A stretch of DNA of 39,877 nucleotides from Rhodospirillales bacterium RIFCSPLOWO2_02_FULL_58_16 (GTDB lineage Bacteria > Pseudomonadota > Alphaproteobacteria > Rhodospirillales > 2-02-FULL-58-16). The notes under the pieces are model-generated. The model worked only from the letters and a program-made list of their open reading frames with translations. It was not told the DNA's origin and made no database searches. A program made the translations under genes and the position numbers. The stretch lies in assembly GCA_001830425.1 (NCBI GenBank), contig MIAA01000001.1, positions 105,045 through 144,921 on the forward strand, given 5' to 3'. This document shows, in pieces, positions 1,078-10,107 of this stretch (position 1 is the stretch's first letter; each line of letters begins with the position of its first letter).

Positions 1078-1809
1078 CTATTCCATGTCTCTGTCGTAGT
1101 AAGCCTTCTTCAGCTTGTCATGGCCCATGGCCATCAACTCTTCATATTCCTTGTCAAAGACGCCGTCTTTGACCTGCTTGACCCGCACCGCCAGTTCCGG
1201 GCTTTCCTTGCGCAGATAGCGGCCATAAAGGCGCTTGCCGAGGATTCCCACCTTGTGCTGGACGATCTCGGCCGGGCAGCGCATGGCGCACAAGCCGCAG
1301 CAGACGCAATCGAACGACAGGTCCATAAGCGATTCGATATCGCCGCGCATGGCGGCGTTCACATAGTCCATGACCTCAAGTCCCTGCGGACACACCTTGG
1401 TGCAGGTGTTGCATGAGACACAGCGGAAAACCACGGGATAAATCTTCTGGATGGTGGCGACGGTCGGTTCCAGATCCTCAAGATTATAGATCGCCTTCTG
1501 GACGGGGAAGGCCGGGATCTGGGTAACGATCATGCCTTCCTTGACAAGGGTGGTGCAGGCCAGTCCGGAATAAATTTTGTAATCGCCGGGAAGACGATAG
1601 ATGGTGCCGCAGGCGCCGCAATAACCCTCCCGGCATCCGGCGCCGCGTATGATCTGCTGACCGGCATATTCGATAGCCCCCATGATCGTCGCTTCAGCGG
1701 GAACGTGATAAAGCTTGCCCATGATGTAAATAGTCGCCATGCGCAATTTGGAATCATCCTGCGCGGCTCCGGCTTTCATCCTGGATTTTGCCTTTTTGTC
1801 GCTGCTCAT
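1078..1809 (-). CDS. Iron-sulfur subunit with one 2Fe-2S and two 4Fe-4S sites, partner of the flavoprotein
   Basis: This 243-residue protein transfers electrons for the flavoprotein encoded just downstream. The N-terminal half carries a ferredoxin-type 2Fe-2S site with Cys59, Cys64, Cys67 and Cys85 (CREGYCGAC then SGLAC). The C-terminal half has two clusters: Cys130/133/136/140 (CVSCNTCTKVCP) and Cys168/171/174/178 (CVCCGLCAMRCP, with an extra Cys170). This is the SdhB/FrdB-like arrangement, but both C-terminal sites have the full CxxCxxCxxxCP spacing of 4Fe-4S clusters; classical SdhB binds 3Fe-4S at one site. The open frame extends upstream to 2100 into tlyA, but ATG 1809 is the sensible start: it is preceded by GGGG and the upstream extension is arginine- and proline-rich and non-homologous in character. 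Thiol:fumarate reductase TfrB and other FrdB-like proteins are alternatives. Confidence 0.85.
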   Translation of the reverse strand: MSSDKKAKSRMKAGAAQDDSKLRMATIYIMGKLYHVPAEATIMGAIEYAGQQIIRGAGCREGYCGACGTIYRLPGDYKIYSGLACTTLVKEGMIVTQIPAFPVQKAIYNLEDLEPTVATIQKIYPVVFRCVSCNTCTKVCPQGLEVMDYVNAAMRGDIESLMDLSFDCVCCGLCAMRCPAEIVQHKVGILGKRLYGRYLRKESPELAVRVKQVKDGVFDKEYEELMAMGHDKLKKAYYDRDME

Positions 1810-1970
1810 CGTGATATCCCCGTGTGCAACAGTGGAGGGCTTCCGTCCCTTTAAAAACAACAGATAACGAACGGAAACCGGACTCGGTAAGGATGTTTGC
1901 GGAGGGTGAAGTTGGGAACACCCGCTAGGGGAGCGATTTGTTCTCTTTAGGGCGGGACGCCACCTGCCCG

Positions 1971-2717
1971 TTAGGGTAGCTTGCGCCGCGCCGCGATAAG
2001 AAATTCCTTGTTGCCTTCGGGGCCGGTGATCGGGCTTTCGGTTATGCCGAGCGCCGTCCAGCCGGGCCGGGCGTCGAGCCAGCCGTGAATGCGTCGGCAT
2101 ACTTCCTCGTGCACCACCGGATCGCGGACTACGCCCTTGCTCCCCACTTTATCCCTGCCGGCCTCGAACTGCGGCTTGATCAGGGCGATCAGGCAAGCGT
2201 CGGGCGCGGCCAGGGCCATGCCCGCCGGCAGGATCGTTTCCAGGCCGATGAAACCGGCGTCACAAACGATCATGGAAACAGGATCGGGAATCTGCGCGGC
2301 GGTCAAATAGCGGGCGTTGGTCTTCTCCACCACCGCCACCCGATCATCATTCCTGAGCTTCCAGGCCAGTTGGCCGTAGCCGACATCGACGGCATAGACC
2401 TTGGCGGCGCCGCGACTCAACAGCACGTCGGTAAATCCCCCCGTGGAAGCGCCGATGTCCAGACACGTCAGGCCGTTTACGTCGATGGCGAAATGATTCA
2501 GCCCATGGTCCAGCTTGACGCCGCCCCGCGATACCCAGGGGTGATCGCCGCCGCGCACCTCCAGCGGAGCATCCTCAGCCGTTTGCCGCCCCGGTTTATC
2601 AAGACGCTTGCCGCCGCTGAACACCGCTCCGGCCATGACCAGCGCCTGCGCCCTGGTCCGGCTTTCGGCCAGGCCGCGTTCGACCAGCAACTGATCGAGA
2701 CGATATTTAGTCGCCAT
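1971..2717 (-). CDS. tlyA: TlyA-family rRNA 2'-O-methyltransferase (S4 domain + FtsJ-like fold)
   Basis: 248 residues, the usual TlyA length. Residues 2-62 form an S4 RNA-binding domain (RLDQLLVERGL). The catalytic domain follows, with WVSRGGVKLD (61-70, candidate catalytic Lys68), the SAM loop LDIGASTGGFTD (86-97), CDAGFIGL (152-159) and LIKPQFEAGR (179-188, Lys181). The family methylates ribose 2'-OH groups of 16S and/or 23S rRNA; some members are annotated as hemolysins. The start lies 11 bases inside the end of the MFS gene, so the two are translationally linked. In many alphaproteobacteria tlyA directly follows dxs; here dxs is at the far end of the window (37345-39267). CDAGFIGL departs slightly from the more common DVSFISL. 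Confidence 0.88.
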   Translation of the reverse strand: MATKYRLDQLLVERGLAESRTRAQALVMAGAVFSGGKRLDKPGRQTAEDAPLEVRGGDHPWVSRGGVKLDHGLNHFAIDVNGLTCLDIGASTGGFTDVLLSRGAAKVYAVDVGYGQLAWKLRNDDRVAVVEKTNARYLTAAQIPDPVSMIVCDAGFIGLETILPAGMALAAPDACLIALIKPQFEAGRDKVGSKGVVRDPVVHEEVCRRIHGWLDARPGWTALGITESPITGPEGNKEFLIAARRKLP

Positions 2718-3876
2718 CCTTCAAGGCCCTCGCCCCGAGGAAGGCGACCACGATCATTACCGCCGATCCGGCGTAATAAGGCCAATCGCTGCCGAGAAAA
2801 GAAAACAGAACCCCGGCCCAGGCCGGGCCGAGCACTCTGGACAGGATGGTGGCCGAGCGGGCAACGCCCATTACTCCGCCCTGCTCGTCTTCTCCCACCT
2901 GCAACGAAATCAGGCTGTTCAGCGACGGCGTGATTATGGAGAAACCATAGGCGACGATGATCATGGCGACCCCCAGCAGCGGCAGCGAATGGGCAAAGGG
3001 GATCATCCCGACGCCGACGGCCAGCGCCACCGCTCCATGGACAATCAGCCGCGCCTCGCCGAAGACGCCCGCCAAACGACCGATCAACATTCCCTGGATA
3101 ACGGCGCCCATCAGGCCGACGAAGGCGAACATATAGCCGTTCTGCTCCGGCCCCCAGCCGAAGCGGCGCTCGGTCCACATGGCGAAAGTGGTCTCCAGCC
3201 CGGCGAAGACGAATACCGCAAGGAAGGACAGCATAATCAACGACCCTACCCTGGGCCGCGACAGGATTTCGATAAAATAGCGCAGACGTTTTTTCGGCTC
3301 GCTCGCCGCCAGCCGGCTGCGTATTTCCTGAGACAAAGATTCTTTGAGAATGAACGCGGCCATAATTAGGGCGACGGTAGATAATGCGGCGGCGGCAAAC
3401 GCCGGAGTCTGGTAATCGGCGTTAAAAGGATCGGAACCGGCGAGTACGCCGCCGATGGCCGGCCCGGCGATAAAGCCGAGGCCGAAGGCGGCGCCGATCG
3501 TCCCCATGCCCTTGGCCCGATTCTCCGGCGTCGTCACGTCGGCCACATAGGCGAAGGCCGCCGAAATGTTGCCGGCCATAACGCCGCCTAACGCCCTCGC
3601 CGCGAACAGCGTCCACAGGCTTTCGGCCATGCCCAGCCATATGTAGGAAACGGCGGCTCCGGCCAGAGTCATCAGCAACACCGGACGCCGCCCCAGGCGA
3701 TCGCTCATCCGCCCCCACATCGGCGCCGCCAGAAACTGGGTCAGCGAATAGGTGGCCATCACCAGCCCGACCGTCGCCGGGGATGCCTGGAAATGCTCGG
3801 CATAGAAAGGCAGAAGCGGAATGATTATGCCGAAGCCGACAAGGTCGATGAAGACGATAAGGAACAGAATCAACAT
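2707..3876 (-). CDS. MFS transporter, TetA-like drug/H+ antiporter family
   Basis: 389 residues with about 12 hydrophobic segments, the length and hydropathy of TetA-type major facilitator exporters. The first helix contains DLVGFGIIIPLLP, and the loop between helices 2 and 3 carries motif A, GRMSDRLGRRPV (55-66), both characteristic of the class B/TetA-like DHA1 group. The likely role is proton-driven efflux of a small amphiphilic compound across the inner membrane. The substrate cannot be read from sequence and a tetracycline claim would be unsafe. It follows the MotB-like gene by 15 bases and overlaps tlyA by 11, so it is probably co-transcribed. The Shine-Dalgarno is weak, but homology of the first helix supports ATG 3876. 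Confidence 0.85.
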   Translation of the reverse strand: MLILFLIVFIDLVGFGIIIPLLPFYAEHFQASPATVGLVMATYSLTQFLAAPMWGRMSDRLGRRPVLLMTLAGAAVSYIWLGMAESLWTLFAARALGGVMAGNISAAFAYVADVTTPENRAKGMGTIGAAFGLGFIAGPAIGGVLAGSDPFNADYQTPAFAAAALSTVALIMAAFILKESLSQEIRSRLAASEPKKRLRYFIEILSRPRVGSLIMLSFLAVFVFAGLETTFAMWTERRFGWGPEQNGYMFAFVGLMGAVIQGMLIGRLAGVFGEARLIVHGAVALAVGVGMIPFAHSLPLLGVAMIIVAYGFSIITPSLNSLISLQVGEDEQGGVMGVARSATILSRVLGPAWAGVLFSFLGSDWPYYAGSAVMIVVAFLGARALKDGD

Positions 3877-3891
3877 GTTGAGAAAGCCGGC

Positions 3892-5001
3892 CTAGCGCTG
3901 GGTGAGTTTCAACTCGATGCGACGATTGCGACGCATTCCGATTTCATCCTTGCGATCATCCAGCGGATAGAATTCGGCGAAGCCGGCCGCCGTCAGGCGA
4001 TGGGGCGGAATCCCCTGTCCGACAAGGAAAGTCACCACCGAAATGGCGCGGGCCGAGGAAAGCTCCCAGTTGGAGGGAAACCTGGCGGTTTTAATCGGCG
4101 CCCTGTCGGTATGCCCGTCAATCTGGAGTATCCAGTCGATGCCTTCGGGAATCCTGGCGGATATTTCCAACAGGGTTTGGGCCAGCCGCCCGAGCTGCAC
4201 CTTGCCTTCTTCGCCAAGCTGGTCCGAGGCGCTGGCGAACAGCACCTCGGATTGAAAGACGAAGCGGTCGCCGACGATCCTTACGTCCTTCTGGTCGCCC
4301 AGCACCTCGCGCAGACGACCGAAAAATTCGGAGCGGTAACGCGACAGCTCATGCACTTTGGCGGCCAGCGCGGCGTTCAGGCGCTTGCCCAGGGAAACGA
4401 TCTGCACGTCCTGGCTCTCGGCTTTCTTTTCGGCCGCATCGAGAACTGCGGACAATTGAGCCAGTTGTTCGCGCAGGGCCGCCATCTGCTTGTTAAGCAA
4501 CGCCACCTGGGCGCGGGCGCTTTCCGAGATATTCTTTTCCTCAATCACCGCCGCCTGTGATTGATCGAGCTTGCCCGACATCTCGGCGATCCTTGTCTCC
4601 ATCTCCTCCTTGAGCGCCCGCAGGGCCGCCAGATCTCCGCTTAATTTGACGACTTCGGCAAGACTGCTCTCCGCCTTGCTTTCAAGAAAACCGACGTAGG
4701 CGTTGAGTTCGTCGCGCTTGATAACCGAAGCCTGCAATTCATCGGAAAGCTGGGTCACGTTGAGCCGCAGGTCATCGGCATTCTTGCGCTCCATGGCCAG
4801 CAGGCCGGCCAGTTCGCTGATCTGACCTTCAAGCCTTTTCAGCGCCTGATCGCGGCTGGCGATGGCTTGGCCCAGAAAGAACTGCGCCAGCACGAAAATC
4901 ATCAACAAAAAGATGATTACCATCAACAGCGTCGACAGGGCGTCGACGAATCCGGGCCAGATATTGGTGGCGCGCGGCGAACGACGGGCAAGGGTGGCCA
5001 T
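3892..5001 (-). CDS. MotB/OmpA-like stator protein of an envelope motor-type complex
   Basis: 369 residues in three parts. One N-terminal transmembrane helix (about 16-44) carries Asp20 in GFVDALSTLL, the position equivalent to the ion-carrying Asp of MotB/TolR/ExbD. A long predicted coiled coil spans about 50-215. A C-terminal OmpA/MotB peptidoglycan-binding domain (about 245-369) includes IDGHTDR (294-300), NWELSSARA and RRNRRIEL (357-364). It starts 11 bases after the MotA-like gene, whose TAG stop forms part of this gene's TAGGAG ribosome site, so the two are tightly coupled. The extended coiled coil is unlike flagellar MotB. It probably harvests the ion gradient with the MotA-like partner and anchors the complex to the cell wall. 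The physiological role is unknown. Confidence 0.85.
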   Translation of the reverse strand: MATLARRSPRATNIWPGFVDALSTLLMVIIFLLMIFVLAQFFLGQAIASRDQALKRLEGQISELAGLLAMERKNADDLRLNVTQLSDELQASVIKRDELNAYVGFLESKAESSLAEVVKLSGDLAALRALKEEMETRIAEMSGKLDQSQAAVIEEKNISESARAQVALLNKQMAALREQLAQLSAVLDAAEKKAESQDVQIVSLGKRLNAALAAKVHELSRYRSEFFGRLREVLGDQKDVRIVGDRFVFQSEVLFASASDQLGEEGKVQLGRLAQTLLEISARIPEGIDWILQIDGHTDRAPIKTARFPSNWELSSARAISVVTFLVGQGIPPHRLTAAGFAEFYPLDDRKDEIGMRRNRRIELKLTQR

Positions 5002-5012
5002 TACCCGCGCTC

Positions 5013-6170
5013 CTAGCGGTCGGAGTTGCCGGGAGAGGCGGATTCAGAGACGCCGGCGATGGTGCGCGCCAGCAGTTTTATTTCGCTGCGCAGGCTTTGA
5101 ATAATTTCGTTGCGCCCGGAATTCATCTCCTCAAGCAGTCGCGCCATGTAGACGTCCAGGTTGCGGATATGGGTGCGCGTCGCCTCGTCAAGCCCGTCGG
5201 CCCGCGCCGTTCCCCTGCCGTCAAAAAGTTTGACCAGAACGTTCTTGGTCTCCACCTGGGTTTCCGCCATCTTCATCATCAGCGATTGCTCGGTGCGCAT
5301 GTGATCGGTCAGCGTCCCCACCTTTTCACCAAGCTCCATCATCCGGTGCTCGGCCGAGACGCGGTTTTCCTCGCCCTTGATCAATGTGCGTTGCAGGTTT
5401 TCAAGGCCGTCCGCCATCTGCTCAAGCAACGCCTGAACGTAAGCCGGGACCGACTGGTCGCCGTCCCCGGATAATGAGCCGCCGGAAAGCCTGGTCAGGC
5501 TCGACAGCCATTCCTCCAGGTCGTTGTAAAAACGGTTCTGCGCCTGTCCCGCCTGCAAATCCAGAAAGCCGAGGATCAGGGAGCCGGAAAGACCGAACAA
5601 CGATGTGGAAAAGGCCGTTCCCATGCCGTGAAGCGGCATCTTCAGGCCGTCCTGCAATTTGCCGAACATATCGACGACATCGCCGCCGGCCGACAGCCCG
5701 CTTATAACGTTGCCGATTGATGAGATCGTCTCAAGAAGCCCCCAAAAAGTCCCCAGCAGGCCCAGAAAGATCAACAATCCGATATTGTACCTGGACAGAT
5801 CGCGGGATTCATCAAGGCGAAAATAGATGCCGTCCAGCAGCGAGCGCATGGACATGGCCGACAGTTTCAGTTTGTCCTTGCGCCCGCCCATCATGTTCGC
5901 CATCGACGCCAGCAGTTTGGGCGGCTTGTGATGAGACAGGCCTGTCTGAGGATTGCGGAAGTTATTGATCCACGCGGCCTCCGGGTAAAGCATCGTCACT
6001 TGGCGGAAATTATAAAACACCCCCAACAGCAATACGCCGAGAATCAACCCGTTAAGCGGGGCGTTGGACATGAACGCCCCCTTCAGCGGCATGTACAGAA
6101 CGCCGCACACAGTCACCACGATCATAAAGAATATAATCATCCGGACGAGAAAACGTCTCGGCAGAGCCAT
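5013..6170 (-). CDS. MotA/TolQ/ExbB-like proton-channel protein with cytoplasmic coiled-coil tail
   Basis: 385 residues. Hydrophobic segments are near 9-29, 38-54, 128-150 and 186-206, the four-helix plan of MotA. A cytoplasmic loop lies between helices 2 and 3, and the last two helices carry GLLGTFWGLLETISS (137-151) and GMGTAFSTSLFGLSGSLILG (182-201), which match the MotA/TolQ/ExbB family core. After helix 4 a charged, coiled-coil-like tail of about 170 residues (about 207-372) extends into the cytoplasm, longer than in MotA or ExbB. Its MotB-like partner is 11 bases downstream and a periplasmic proline-rich OmpA-like protein is 37 bases upstream. The set looks like an ion-driven trans-envelope machine. 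It is probably not the flagellar stator, because of the tail and the third partner. Confidence 0.85.
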   Translation of the reverse strand: MALPRRFLVRMIIFFMIVVTVCGVLYMPLKGAFMSNAPLNGLILGVLLLGVFYNFRQVTMLYPEAAWINNFRNPQTGLSHHKPPKLLASMANMMGGRKDKLKLSAMSMRSLLDGIYFRLDESRDLSRYNIGLLIFLGLLGTFWGLLETISSIGNVISGLSAGGDVVDMFGKLQDGLKMPLHGMGTAFSTSLFGLSGSLILGFLDLQAGQAQNRFYNDLEEWLSSLTRLSGGSLSGDGDQSVPAYVQALLEQMADGLENLQRTLIKGEENRVSAEHRMMELGEKVGTLTDHMRTEQSLMMKMAETQVETKNVLVKLFDGRGTARADGLDEATRTHIRNLDVYMARLLEEMNSGRNEIIQSLRSEIKLLARTIAGVSESASPGNSDR

Positions 6171-6207
6171 GGCGGAAATTGCCTCCGGAGGTTAGGACCT
6201 TAAATCA

Positions 6208-7311
6208 TCAACGATCAATGATATTCAGATCGACGCGGTTCATCGGCTCGTCGGGGGCCTTATCCCCGAGCGCACGCACATCGATTCTTGTGCTGCGAAC
6301 GCCGGCCTCGATCAGATAGGACCGCACCGCCAGGGCGCGTGACAGCGCCAACCTTCGGGCTTTGCTGGCGGAAAGTCCTCCGCCGCCGGCATAGGCCAGA
6401 AGTTGAAGGCGCAGTTCTTCTTTTTCCTTCAATTTGGCCGCCAGGGAATCGAGGCCGCCCTTCGCTTCGACAGGCAGCATGGTAACGTCTGAACTGAATG
6501 TCACCCGCATGACTTGTCCCAGCGCCAACGGAGAACCGGCGGCGGGGAGAGAGGCCTGTTGTTGCTTAACCGGCGGCGACGCGATTACCGGCGCGGCGAT
6601 TTGAGGAGGCGACGGCGGCGCTATTGTCGGCGCTGCGGTTTGGGGAGGCGGTGGAGTCTTCTCAATCATGGAGGACGGCGCCGGCGGCATCGGCGCCTTG
6701 ATCACGGAGGACGACGGCAACGGCGGCGGAGCCTTGGCGGCAACAATCGGCGCAGGCGGCGGCGCTATTGTCGGGACAGCGATCTGGGGAGGAGGCGGCG
6801 GCGCTTTGTCCATGCTTTCCGAAGCGACGTTTACCGGGGCTATGTTTACCGGCTTGCCGCTCTTCCTCGCCGGCTCCGGTTCATCTGTCGGCGGCGGCGG
6901 AAGATCCATGCTCTTGGCGACTAAAGGTTTGGCCGGCGCCTTTTTAGGCGGCGGGGCCATGCCTGTTTCCGTGGGATTGCCTGATTGGTCGGCGACGCCG
7001 GAATCGGGCCTCTTGAGCTGAATTCTTTCAGCGCCGGGCGAAGCGATAACCCTTGAAACCGGGAAATCCACCCCCGGAAACAAAAGCGATTGTCCGCCGC
7101 CCGATGACGGCAAAGCGCCGGGGACGAAAGTTTTCGCCCCGAAGCCCCCGTCATGGATAACGCCCAAGTCGATAACGACATTGGGGTCCGACGTATCGAA
7201 ATAAGGATACTGCTGCGCGTAAGCCTTGCTTACCGTCAGCGCCGGCGCCGCCCAGAAAGCGGCAACCGCACATGACCCGATAACACGAGTTAAGCGACGG
7301 AGGTTTCTCAT
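6208..7311 (-). CDS. Periplasmic proline-rich protein with C-terminal OmpA-like domain
   Basis: 367 residues. An N-terminal signal peptide (hydrophobic core about 10-28, likely cleavage after AYA at 30-32) leads into a glycine-rich segment. Next comes a proline/alanine-rich region (about 118-262) with repeated PPPP, APTIAPP and KAPPP elements, and then a C-terminal OmpA-like domain (about 265-367) with VTFSSDVTML and SKARRLALSRALAVRSYL. The proline-rich stretch resembles the periplasm-spanning part of TonB or TolA, but there is no N-terminal anchor. The start at 7311 has GGGGGA seven to eight bases upstream. It precedes the MotA-like and MotB-like genes, so I infer it is the outer, cell-wall-associated part of that machine. 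It could also act independently as a peptidoglycan-binding lattice protein. Confidence 0.75.
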   Translation of the reverse strand: MRNLRRLTRVIGSCAVAAFWAAPALTVSKAYAQQYPYFDTSDPNVVIDLGVIHDGGFGAKTFVPGALPSSGGGQSLLFPGVDFPVSRVIASPGAERIQLKRPDSGVADQSGNPTETGMAPPPKKAPAKPLVAKSMDLPPPPTDEPEPARKSGKPVNIAPVNVASESMDKAPPPPPQIAVPTIAPPPAPIVAAKAPPPLPSSSVIKAPMPPAPSSMIEKTPPPPQTAAPTIAPPSPPQIAAPVIASPPVKQQQASLPAAGSPLALGQVMRVTFSSDVTMLPVEAKGGLDSLAAKLKEKEELRLQLLAYAGGGGLSASKARRLALSRALAVRSYLIEAGVRSTRIDVRALGDKAPDEPMNRVDLNIIDR

Positions 7312-7469
7312 ATGCCGGTCCCCCGATAATTCAAATTGACCATTGCCGACACTTCACAACACCGACCATTAACAATTCTAAAAGATTTTGAAGAAAATAG
7401 CCAAGGGGCGCCCCGCGCACAACCTATTTGCCTGATAATAGCGCATTCAGAGAGGTTAGAGAGCATTAA

Positions 7470-8300
7470 TTATTCCGCTTTCTGGTCTTTCGCGGCTTTT
7501 TTTTCATTTGCCGATTCGCGGAGAATTTTCCCCAACGGCCCGTGCAAAGGGTCATTGGCGGCCAGAATCGAACCGCCGGACATCATATCCTGGCCGCCCT
7601 CTATGTCGCTGACGAAGCCGCCGGCCTCACGCACAATTATGATGCCTGCAGAGATGTCCCAAGGCTTAAGTCCGGTCTCCCAGAAGCCGTCATAGCGTCC
7701 GGCCGCCACATAAGCCAGATCAAGCGCCGCCGAACCGAAGCGCCTCACCCCGGCGGAAACCGCCATCACCGCCTTGAGTTGTCTCAGGAAAAGGGGGTGA
7801 TCGCGCACGCCCTTGAAGGGAATGCCGGTGGCGAACAGGGATTCATCCATATTATGACGGTTGGATACCCTGATGCGGCGACCGTTCAAATGCGCTCCCT
7901 GCCCCTTCTCGGCGGTAAACATCTGATCGTGCACAGGCTCATAGATAACCCCGGCAAAAGGCTCGCCGTCGCGTTCAAGAGCAATGGATATGGCGAAATG
8001 AGGGATGCCGTGCAGAAAATTCGTCGTGCCGTCCAGGGGATCGACGACCCAGCGATTGGAAGTGTCCGAGCCGACGATCTCTCCCCTTTCCTCCAACAGA
8101 AAGCCGAAGTTGGGCCGCGCCTTGTTCAGTTCGATGCGAATGACATTTTCGGCGGTTTTATCGGCGGCGCACACAAAGTCGGCAGGCCCCTTTTTTGAGA
8201 CCTGAAGATTTTCAACCTCGCCGAAGTCGCGCACCAGTTTACGCGCCGCCTTGCGCGCCGCGCCGGACATTACGTTGATAAGGGGGGATTGACGATGCAC
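7470..8300 (-). CDS. suhB: Inositol monophosphatase family phosphatase (SuhB-like)
   Basis: 276 residues. Metal-binding motif 1 is WVVDPLDGTTNF (84-95, with Asp87, Asp90 and upstream Glu70/71). Motif 2 is the PWDISAG stretch near residue 218, followed by REAGGFVSD. These are diagnostic of Mg2+-dependent lithium-sensitive inositol monophosphatases. In bacteria the family dephosphorylates inositol phosphates, and SuhB also has roles in rRNA transcription. The start is GTG at 8300, overlapping the last base of the efp stop. The early residues QSPLINVM match the family N-terminus, which favours it over ATG 8270. It is probably co-transcribed with efp. The 158 bases that follow, before the OmpA-like gene, may hold a separate promoter. 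Confidence 0.88.
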   Translation of the reverse strand: MHRQSPLINVMSGAARKAARKLVRDFGEVENLQVSKKGPADFVCAADKTAENVIRIELNKARPNFGFLLEERGEIVGSDTSNRWVVDPLDGTTNFLHGIPHFAISIALERDGEPFAGVIYEPVHDQMFTAEKGQGAHLNGRRIRVSNRHNMDESLFATGIPFKGVRDHPLFLRQLKAVMAVSAGVRRFGSAALDLAYVAAGRYDGFWETGLKPWDISAGIIIVREAGGFVSDIEGGQDMMSGGSILAANDPLHGPLGKILRESANEKKAAKDQKAE

Positions 8301-8869
8301 TAACTCTTTGCCCGTTCCATGTAGGAACCGTCGGCGGTATTGACAACGATGCGGGTCCCGGCCTCGATATGGGGCGGCACCAGGGTTCTGACGCCGTTTT
8401 CAAGCACTGCCGGCTTATAGGACGAAGACGCCGTCTGGCCCTTGATCACGGCGTCGGCTTCCATCACTTTCAGGATTACCGTGTCGGGCAACTGGATGTT
8501 CAAAGGATTCTCCCCGTGGCTTTCGATGGTTACGATCATGCTTTCCTGAAGGAACGGCAACTGGTCCTCGCCGAGCAGGCCGGAATCCAATGTGATCTGA
8601 TCATAGGTTTCGTTGTCCATGAAGGTAAGCGCGTCGCCGTCGCTGTAAAGATACTGATATTCTTTCTGGTCAAGACTGACGCGCTCTACGGACTCCGACG
8701 AGCGGAACCGCGTGTTCAGCTTGGTGCCGGAAAGAATATCCTTGAGTTCCACCTGTAGGTAGGCCCCGCCCTTGCCGGGCTGGGTGTGCTGAATTTTAAC
8801 CGCCCGCCACAAGCGACCCTGATGTTCAATCACCATCCCCGGACGGACGGCATTTCCGTTGATCTTCAT
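8300..8869 (-). CDS. efp: Translation elongation factor P
   Basis: 189 residues, the standard EF-P length, with three beta-barrel domains. The N-terminal KOW-like domain holds the exposed loop PGKGGAY, with Lys33 at the position of the modifiable lysine of E. coli EF-P. The C-terminal domain ends with VPPHIEAGTRIVVNTADGSY, a strongly conserved signature. EF-P binds between the ribosomal P and E sites and relieves stalling at polyproline stretches. Several proteins encoded nearby contain such stretches, notably the proline-rich OmpA-like protein three genes downstream. No epmA/epmB or earP gene is visible here, so the modification type is undetermined. It is the first gene of the efp-suhB pair. 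Confidence 0.97.
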   Translation of the reverse strand: MKINGNAVRPGMVIEHQGRLWRAVKIQHTQPGKGGAYLQVELKDILSGTKLNTRFRSSESVERVSLDQKEYQYLYSDGDALTFMDNETYDQITLDSGLLGEDQLPFLQESMIVTIESHGENPLNIQLPDTVILKVMEADAVIKGQTASSSYKPAVLENGVRTLVPPHIEAGTRIVVNTADGSYMERAKS

Positions 8870-8949
8870 CGTTTCAAGCCCAGTATTGGAAAAACGTCGC
8901 GGACACTATCAGCTTGCCGAACCGTAAGCAACGACGAGAATATCATTAT

Positions 8950-9582
8950 TTATTCTGCGGGAGCCGGGACTGATCGAAGCTCGGCGATTGCGTGCCTGAG
9001 CACCTGATATGCGCCGCTCAAAGACAGCGAGGCCATAACGCCCGCCACCGCGAAGTCCGGCCAGCCCGAACCGGTGGCGAACACGCCGCCGGCGGCGGCC
9101 ATGACGGCGATGTTGCCGAGCGCGTCGTTGCGCGAGCAAATCCATACCGAGCGCATGTTGCTGTCGCCGTCGCGGAAGGCATAGAGCATGATTGCAACCG
9201 TCGCGTTGGCGATGAGGGCGGCGACGCCGACCAGCCCCATGACCTCGGCTTCCGGCACCGTGCCGGAGATCAGATGATGGATGGTGTTGCCGACCACCCA
9301 CAATCCGAACGCTCCCATGGTCGCCCCTTTCAGAACCGACGCCATGGCCCGGCGGCGAAGGGACATCCCCAGCACAAACAAACTGACGCCGTAGTTCGCG
9401 GCGTCGCCGAGGAAGTCAATCGCGTCGGCCTGCAACGAGGACGATCCGGCCATCACCCCGGCAACGATCTCGACCACGAACATGACCGCGTTGATGACCA
9501 GGGCTATCCATAGCGCTTTTTTGAAGCGGGCGCTGATCTTGTCGGAGGCCGCGCATCCGCCGCTGCAACAATTAACGCTCAT
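8950..9582 (-). CDS. Short cation diffusion facilitator-like transporter
   Basis: 210 residues with about six hydrophobic segments, matching the membrane domain of cation diffusion facilitators but lacking their usual C-terminal cytoplasmic domain. The TM2 metal site reads DFLGD (Asp56 and Asp60) within SLQADAIDFLGDAANYG. The TM5 equivalent is NDALGN (Asp153 and Asn157), a variant of the usual HxxxD. A cysteine-rich N-terminus (CCSGGC, 5-10) may bind metal. The family exports Zn2+, Co2+, Cd2+ or Fe2+ against protons; the altered TM5 site makes the substrate uncertain. It is transcribed away from the cytochrome at 9652 across a 69-base AT-rich gap and has a good GGGAGA ribosome site. A role in supplying or exporting cobalt for the adjacent cobalamin genes is speculation. 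Confidence 0.8.
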   Translation of the reverse strand: MSVNCCSGGCAASDKISARFKKALWIALVINAVMFVVEIVAGVMAGSSSLQADAIDFLGDAANYGVSLFVLGMSLRRRAMASVLKGATMGAFGLWVVGNTIHHLISGTVPEAEVMGLVGVAALIANATVAIMLYAFRDGDSNMRSVWICSRNDALGNIAVMAAAGGVFATGSGWPDFAVAGVMASLSLSGAYQVLRHAIAELRSVPAPAE

Positions 9583-9651
9583 GCCTATCTCCCGAACGGC
9601 GCTTCGATGTATGATAAACTATGTATATATTGATCACGAGGATAACATTTA
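9583..9651. promoter_or_regulatory. AT-rich divergent promoter region between cation transporter and cytochrome genes
   Basis: The 69 bases between two divergent starts include an AT-rich block at about 9607-9636 containing TATGATAA and TATATATTGATCA. This is the only place where promoters for both genes can lie. It holds TATAAT-like elements on both strands and a TGATCA palindrome. I cannot assign exact -35/-10 boxes or an operator. Confidence 0.4.
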
Positions 9652-10107
9652 ATGAAACGCCATAAAGTCTCGCTTGCCGCCATCGCCTTGTGGGGCGTCA
9701 CCATCGCCCTTGTTGCTTTTATGATTATCCGGGGGCAGACCGAGACGGCTGCCGACGGCAGGACCGCCGTGGTTCTGAGCGTAGCGGAGAGAGATCATAT
9801 CCTCGGCGAAATGCGCGGAATGCTGGGGAGCATTCAAGGGATCATCAGCGCCATGGCCGACGGCAACATGGAAGATGTCGCCCGCGTCGCCGCCGAAAGC
9901 GGAATCTCCCGAATGCAGCACGAAAACCCGGCGCTGATTCTCAAGATGCCTCTCGACTTCAAGCAAATGGGCAAGGCCGCCCATCAGGGATTCGATGAAA
10001 TTGCGCTGACCGCCCCGCAGGGCAAGGACGCCTTGTTAAAACGCCTCGATCAGCAATTGTCCGTATGTATGGCCTGCCATGAAAATTATAAATTCAAGGC
10101 CGAATGA
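9652..10107 (+). CDS. Membrane-anchored c-type cytochrome, cytochrome c'/c556-like
   Basis: 151 residues. A single hydrophobic N-terminal segment (about 7-26) serves as uncleaved anchor or signal. A largely helical domain follows, with a haem-attachment motif CMACH at 139-143, only eight residues from the C-terminus. A C-terminal CxxCH after a helical bundle is typical of the cytochrome c'/c556 family, rather than class I cytochrome c, where the motif is N-terminal. The haem would face the periplasm; the role may be electron transfer or ligand binding. The ATG at 9652 follows GAGGAT. It stands alone, convergent with the cobalamin operon that ends 16 bases beyond its stop. No partner oxidase or reductase is adjacent. 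Confidence 0.75.
   Translation: MKRHKVSLAAIALWGVTIALVAFMIIRGQTETAADGRTAVVLSVAERDHILGEMRGMLGSIQGIISAMADGNMEDVARVAAESGISRMQHENPALILKMPLDFKQMGKAAHQGFDEIALTAPQGKDALLKRLDQQLSVCMACHENYKFKAE

Follow-up and report, generated by a model that had tools for sequence, protein, structure and literature searches.

Two neighboring genes on the minus strand of a 39,877-nucleotide stretch of DNA from Rhodospirillales bacterium RIFCSPLOWO2_02_FULL_58_16 (contig MIAA01000001.1; the whole stretch is called the window here) encode a MotA-like A subunit and a MotB-like B subunit, which are conserved across the Alphaproteobacteria and occur independently of flagella. We lean toward the view that in Alphaproteobacteria this pair serves the cell envelope as a dedicated ion-driven motor, which is non-flagellar and likely used at the zones of wall growth and division. 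Motors of its kind are known, this variant has been neglected, and the family of its B subunit has already been named.

In the window, the B subunit is encoded at 3892–5001, the A subunit at 5013–6170, and a third protein at 6208–7311. All three open reading frames were confirmed on the minus strand, as were the MotA/TolQ-type, MotB-type, and proline-rich secreted OmpA-like characters that an earlier, sequence-only reading had assigned to this run of genes. The gaps between the third and the A gene (37 nt) and between the A and the B gene (11 nt) are short enough for the three genes to fit one operon, which suggests one transcript. Upstream lie a suhB-type inositol monophosphatase gene (7470–8300, minus strand; PF00459, E 6.5e-68) and efp, encoding elongation factor P (8300–8869, minus strand; NF001810, 226 bits). 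Synteny identifies both as conserved upstream neighbors, and they are not thought to be parts of the machine. On the other side, an MFS efflux-type transporter gene (2707–3876, minus strand; PF07690, E 1.9e-65) follows 15 nt downstream of the B gene, with tlyA beyond it, and a related MFS gene was found downstream of the motor pair in 42 loci. The transporter resembles Tet(A/B/C) efflux pumps (E 3e-68), its score of 230 bits being far below the family cut-off of 475.

The B subunit (369 aa) consists of one membrane helix, a long coiled coil, and an OmpA-type wall-binding domain (Pfam OmpA, E 7.6e-14). Its profile match over residues 3–369 (461.2 bits versus a cut-off of 305) makes it a member of NCBIfam NF006543 (PRK09039, “peptidoglycan -binding protein”), a family whose name carries neither a motor function nor a partner. 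The helix Asp and the OmpA domain proposed earlier are both borne out: D20 in WPGFVDALSTLL is real and, together with W15-P16 of the helix and H297, D299, and R318 of the OmpA domain, invariant in 36 of 36 homologs. D299 and R318 are the wall-binding Asp and Arg, which hold meso-DAP in domains of this type. In three loci (L069, L070, and L178), the B-subunit open frames span ~615–730 codons, with start codons unchecked, and the periplasmic coiled coil may therefore vary greatly in length among lineages. A reversed “MotB” in a further locus (L127) was rejected as a contig-end artefact.

The A subunit (385 aa, four predicted membrane helices) is, judged by its profile score, so divergent that it misses the cut-off of Pfam MotA_ExbB (18.6 versus 22.9 bits), and an A-subunit profile run against PDB sequences gave no motor match, only coiled-coil noise from the tail. 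Nevertheless, its pore helices fit those of TolQ, ExbB, and MotA in a column-by-column alignment. All of 60 family sequences have the pore residues T141 and S190, which line up with the Thr in the pore of TolQ/ExbB and with the Ser found in ZorA-like proteins. The AF2 model (single chains only were modeled; mean pLDDT 85.6) has long helices at 5–24, 37–72, 105–158, and 165–231 and a cytoplasmic helical tail at 243–377, an arrangement that, as modeled, is the one expected of a four-helix MotA/ZorA-type subunit. Taken together, the two subunits carry the residues of a 5:2 ion-driven rotary motor, namely an Asp in the B helix and polar Thr/Ser in the A pore helices. A degenerate A subunit of 243 aa, in which Ala replaces T141, was seen in one genome (L241, G089); the gene downstream of it encodes a short coiled-coil protein, and the upstream side gave a weak match to the third protein.

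Of 289 species of Alphaproteobacteria, 188 have the MotA-like protein, almost all of them as a single copy, and about a third of the sampled species gave no match, which counts against the envelope-motor reading. Pair identity amounts to 42–68% in most relatives and 35–43% in the most distant ones across the class, which shows that the pair is not a chance pattern of open reading frames. A survey of synteny, as the sequence-only reading had recommended, recovered the pair in the conserved order efp-suhB-(third)-motA-motB, with the third gene missing in part of the class. In 40 class-wide loci, the MotB-like gene always follows the MotA-like gene; suhB precedes the pair in 34 and efp in 32. The same arrangement recurs at nearly all of a set of 80 named loci, the majority of which come from Rhodospirillales metagenome-assembled genomes, and thiE is often found further upstream. 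When 398 Pseudomonadota were searched with the profile, full-length relatives outside the Alphaproteobacteria appeared in six genomes only. The remaining matches were weaker, many of them to ZorA-type proteins of 700–1300 aa, and the one that was checked proved to be a ZorA3/DUF802 protein encoded beside ZorB3. In one locus (L212, G672:C14:381500-393500, positions 1660–10041), a distant relative of MotA-like type (E 1e-28) is flanked by an HlyD gene and an RTX-repeat gene, and a TolC-type gene and one resembling OmpA/CpaD are found upstream. The arrangement looks like a type I secretion cluster that includes a motor-like A subunit, and no MotB-type gene was recognized among the open reading frames checked there. 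Several genomes of 0.7–1.0 Mb keep an A subunit with T141 and S190; in five of these loci (L232, L234, L235, L238, and L239), the short flanking sequences showed no B gene beside it. The retained pore speaks for the envelope-motor reading and the missing B gene against it.

Presence of the MotA-like protein shows no association with flagella, for which FliG was taken as the marker: among the 289 species, 114 have both proteins, 74 the motor only, 56 FliG only, and 45 neither (Fisher p=0.45). The genome from which the window derives does have FliG, along with six other MotA_ExbB proteins, of which four group with flagellar MotA, one is a TolQ, and one is a second TolQ/ExbB-type protein. A tree of A subunits, built on 128 core columns from a thin sampling without GldL and AglR, unites the alphaproteobacterial family and ZorA3-like/DUF802 proteins in one clade (UFBoot 97) that does not resolve the position of ZorA3 with respect to the family. 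Among the sampled proteins, ZorA3 thus appears to be the nearest relative. The A subunit is excluded from both the flagellar MotA clade (100) and the TolQ/ExbB clade (99). Placement among flagellar MotA/MotB or TolQ/R, the outcome that the earlier reading had named as speaking against it, was therefore not found for the A subunit; the tree of B-subunit OmpA domains, in which ZorB3, PomB-type MotB, and the family come together (89), has weak inner support and says less. The earlier proposal of a non-flagellar, wall-linked ion-motor pair is supported.

The third protein (367 aa) has a predicted cleavable signal peptide (AYA-QQ), called by eye without a dedicated program, closely followed by a conserved V-x-V/I-D-L-x-V-I motif at residues 45–52. 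As had been described earlier, a proline-rich stretch (44 Pro in the 146 residues at 110–255) precedes a second OmpA-like domain (Pfam OmpA, E 3.5e-9, residues 272–354). The model is ordered only at 266–367 (block pLDDT ~95), where it takes an OmpA-like fold, and the linker is disordered. Among the homologs, the linker has a median length of 180 residues and contains 24% Pro. The V-x-V/I-D-L-S-V-I form of the motif occurs in 70 of 121 mature N-termini versus at most 1 in 500 residue shuffles, a count that shows conservation and not independent origin because the 121 sequences are kin. The C-terminal core is highly conserved, with seven to ten invariant columns. It departs from the wall-binding pattern: the Asp position is occupied by Gly, Glu, Ser, or Ala in most sequences (G309 at this locus) and by Asp in 5 of 126, whereas the Arg is kept in 58 of 58. 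Within the order, 53 of 60 genomes have kept the third gene, and it was found in 29 of the 40 class-wide loci. It is absent in Sinorhizobium and was undetected in several lineages that keep the pair; the core is therefore two genes. The idea of a three-gene machine is supported in part only.

Several other explanations have to be weighed against a dedicated envelope motor. With type III-like Zorya ZorAB (ZorA3/DUF802 and ZorB3), the pair shares the A clade, a Thr at the first and a Ser at the second pore position, a cytoplasmic helical tail, and a wall-binding B subunit, and the PADLOC profiles ZorA1 (E 4e-14) and ZorB3 (E 9e-24) match the A and B subunits, respectively. That the pair is a Zorya-like wall-sensing system, serving defense or the response to envelope damage, is nevertheless very improbable. 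The A tail measures ~140 residues versus 400–900 in ZorA, the B subunit contains a long periplasmic coiled coil, and the pair is inherited vertically as a single copy in a fixed household location throughout the class, unlike a mobile defense island. Its conserved neighbors are thiE, efp, suhB, and MFS genes, among which no ZorC/D/E-type gene was recognized. Even less credible, and largely refuted, is an auxiliary flagellar stator. The architecture of a four-helix A subunit and a one-helix B subunit with Asp and an OmpA wall-binding domain is indeed that of MotAB/PomAB, and homologs carry a flagellar annotation in several of the genomes listed in PMC6570709. However, 74 of the 188 carriers have no detectable FliG, the pair does not lie among flagellar genes, the A subunits form a separate clade, the B coiled coil is long, and the genome of the window possesses its own flagellar stators.

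The remaining two alternatives concern the third protein. In a Tol/Ton-like energizer, it would pass the force of the motor to an outer-membrane partner, the V-x-V-D-L-S-V-I motif pairing as a beta strand like the TonB box or the N-terminus of TolB. The recurrence of this motif, the long proline-rich linker, and the TolQ-like pore Thr of the A subunit (in a G-L-x-G-T motif within a small ion-motor core, as in TolQR/ExbBD) are consistent with such a transducer, which we still consider unlikely. The TonB-like nature ascribed to the third protein earlier has to be given up, as it carries a predicted cleavable signal peptide in place of the membrane anchor of TolA/TonB, which would allow no direct pull from the inner membrane, and its C-terminus is OmpA-like and not TonB/TolA-like. 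Against a transducer also speaks that the third protein is not universal. The pair itself also differs from TolQR/ExbBD in having four membrane helices instead of three and an OmpA-domain B subunit instead of one of the TolR/ExbD type, and the genome has its own TolQ. Less doubtful, though still on the improbable side, is that the pair is the whole machine and the third protein an independent envelope protein (e.g., associated with the wall or the outer membrane) that merely shares the operon. Its absence from Sinorhizobium and the 11 of 40 class-wide pair loci in which it was undetected argue for this, whereas two observations argue against it: the third gene immediately precedes the A gene at almost every locus of the order, and the C-terminal columns of the protein are invariant.

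Published work offers clues to the function of the proposed envelope motor. In Komagataeibacter hansenii, a member of a genus without flagella, neighboring genes treated as motility genes encode a MotA of 348 aa, for which four membrane helices are predicted, and a MotB of 321 aa with an OmpA end, the latter 46–48% identical over 95–99% to proteins of Rhizobium gallicum, Rhodospirillum centenum, and Magnetospirillum, with alphaproteobacterial homologs of the two at 46–68% (PMC6570709). Judged by size, topology, and these reported identities and not by sequence comparison, they very likely belong to the same family. Their GFP fusions formed polar foci, and their overexpression led to elongated cells in chains with septa and to more spreading (PMC6570709). 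In Sinorhizobium meliloti, suhB adjoins the pair, and two genes away, ahead of the pair, is a Sel1 gene that is very probably rgsF (SMc03995), a gene of polar growth. Counts of locus tags from tkt2/SMc03978 and from RgsC/SMc04010 both lead to SMc03995, allowing for one unlisted gene and one insertion element. The published claim that SMc03994 is ribosomal protein S21 conflicts with this count, and no S21 motif was found in the region. RgsF is essential, localizes to the growing pole and the septum, and co-purifies with RgsA and TolQR (PMC7327166, PMC5929573), and its knock-out is lethal (PMC5929573). The locus-tag count also places a fragment bound by ChvI inside SMc03993, which is probably the gene of the A subunit (PMC3687685). 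An rgsF-like Sel1 gene adjoins the pair in Rhizobiaceae, lies beside efp in two other families (L064 and L066), and occurs near the pair at one more locus (L113). Most loci showed no such gene, and the link is therefore suggestive only. The gene also sits in a block of household genes (thiE, efp, and suhB), in which neighbors do not have to share a function. A 3.7 Mb record labeled S. meliloti plasmid pSymB (L255, CP090106.1) carries tkt, gap, pgk, and rpmE and seems to be a mislabeled chromosome.

By homology with known motors, the pair would work like a wall-tethered 5:2 ion motor that is distinct from flagellar MotA, TolQ/ExbB, and, by its gene context, Zorya. The A subunits would form a ring, probably of five copies, around a pair of B helices. 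Ions would pass by D20 of the B subunit and T141 and S190 of the A subunit, and their passage would turn or flex the ring relative to the B subunit, which would be held to the peptidoglycan by the OmpA domain at the end of its long coiled coil. Where present, the third protein may act as a soluble periplasmic adaptor, whose N-terminal peptide and modified OmpA-like domain, joined by the long proline-rich linker, would be well placed to connect either the motor or the wall with a different layer of the envelope. Wall growth and division zones (poles and septum) are the likely site of use, and a role in envelope growth and division is probably the best reading, drawn from the inferred orthology with the K. 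hansenii genes and from gene neighborhood. More tentatively, the pair could represent a third envelope motor beside Tol and Ton, devoted to wall growth and division. In many lineages it would be equipped with a transmission protein, disordered and periplasmic, in which the OmpA-like domain would have given up wall binding for a different use.

If the envelope-motor reading is right, a large class of bacteria, to which rhizobia and relatives of Brucella belong, has a motor pair that ranks among its most widely kept and yet has been overlooked or annotated as flagellar. The pair would then permit a direct test of how the energy of ion gradients is used on the wall in pole-growing or non-flagellated bacteria, and it would place a relative of the Zorya motor in a household rather than a defense setting.
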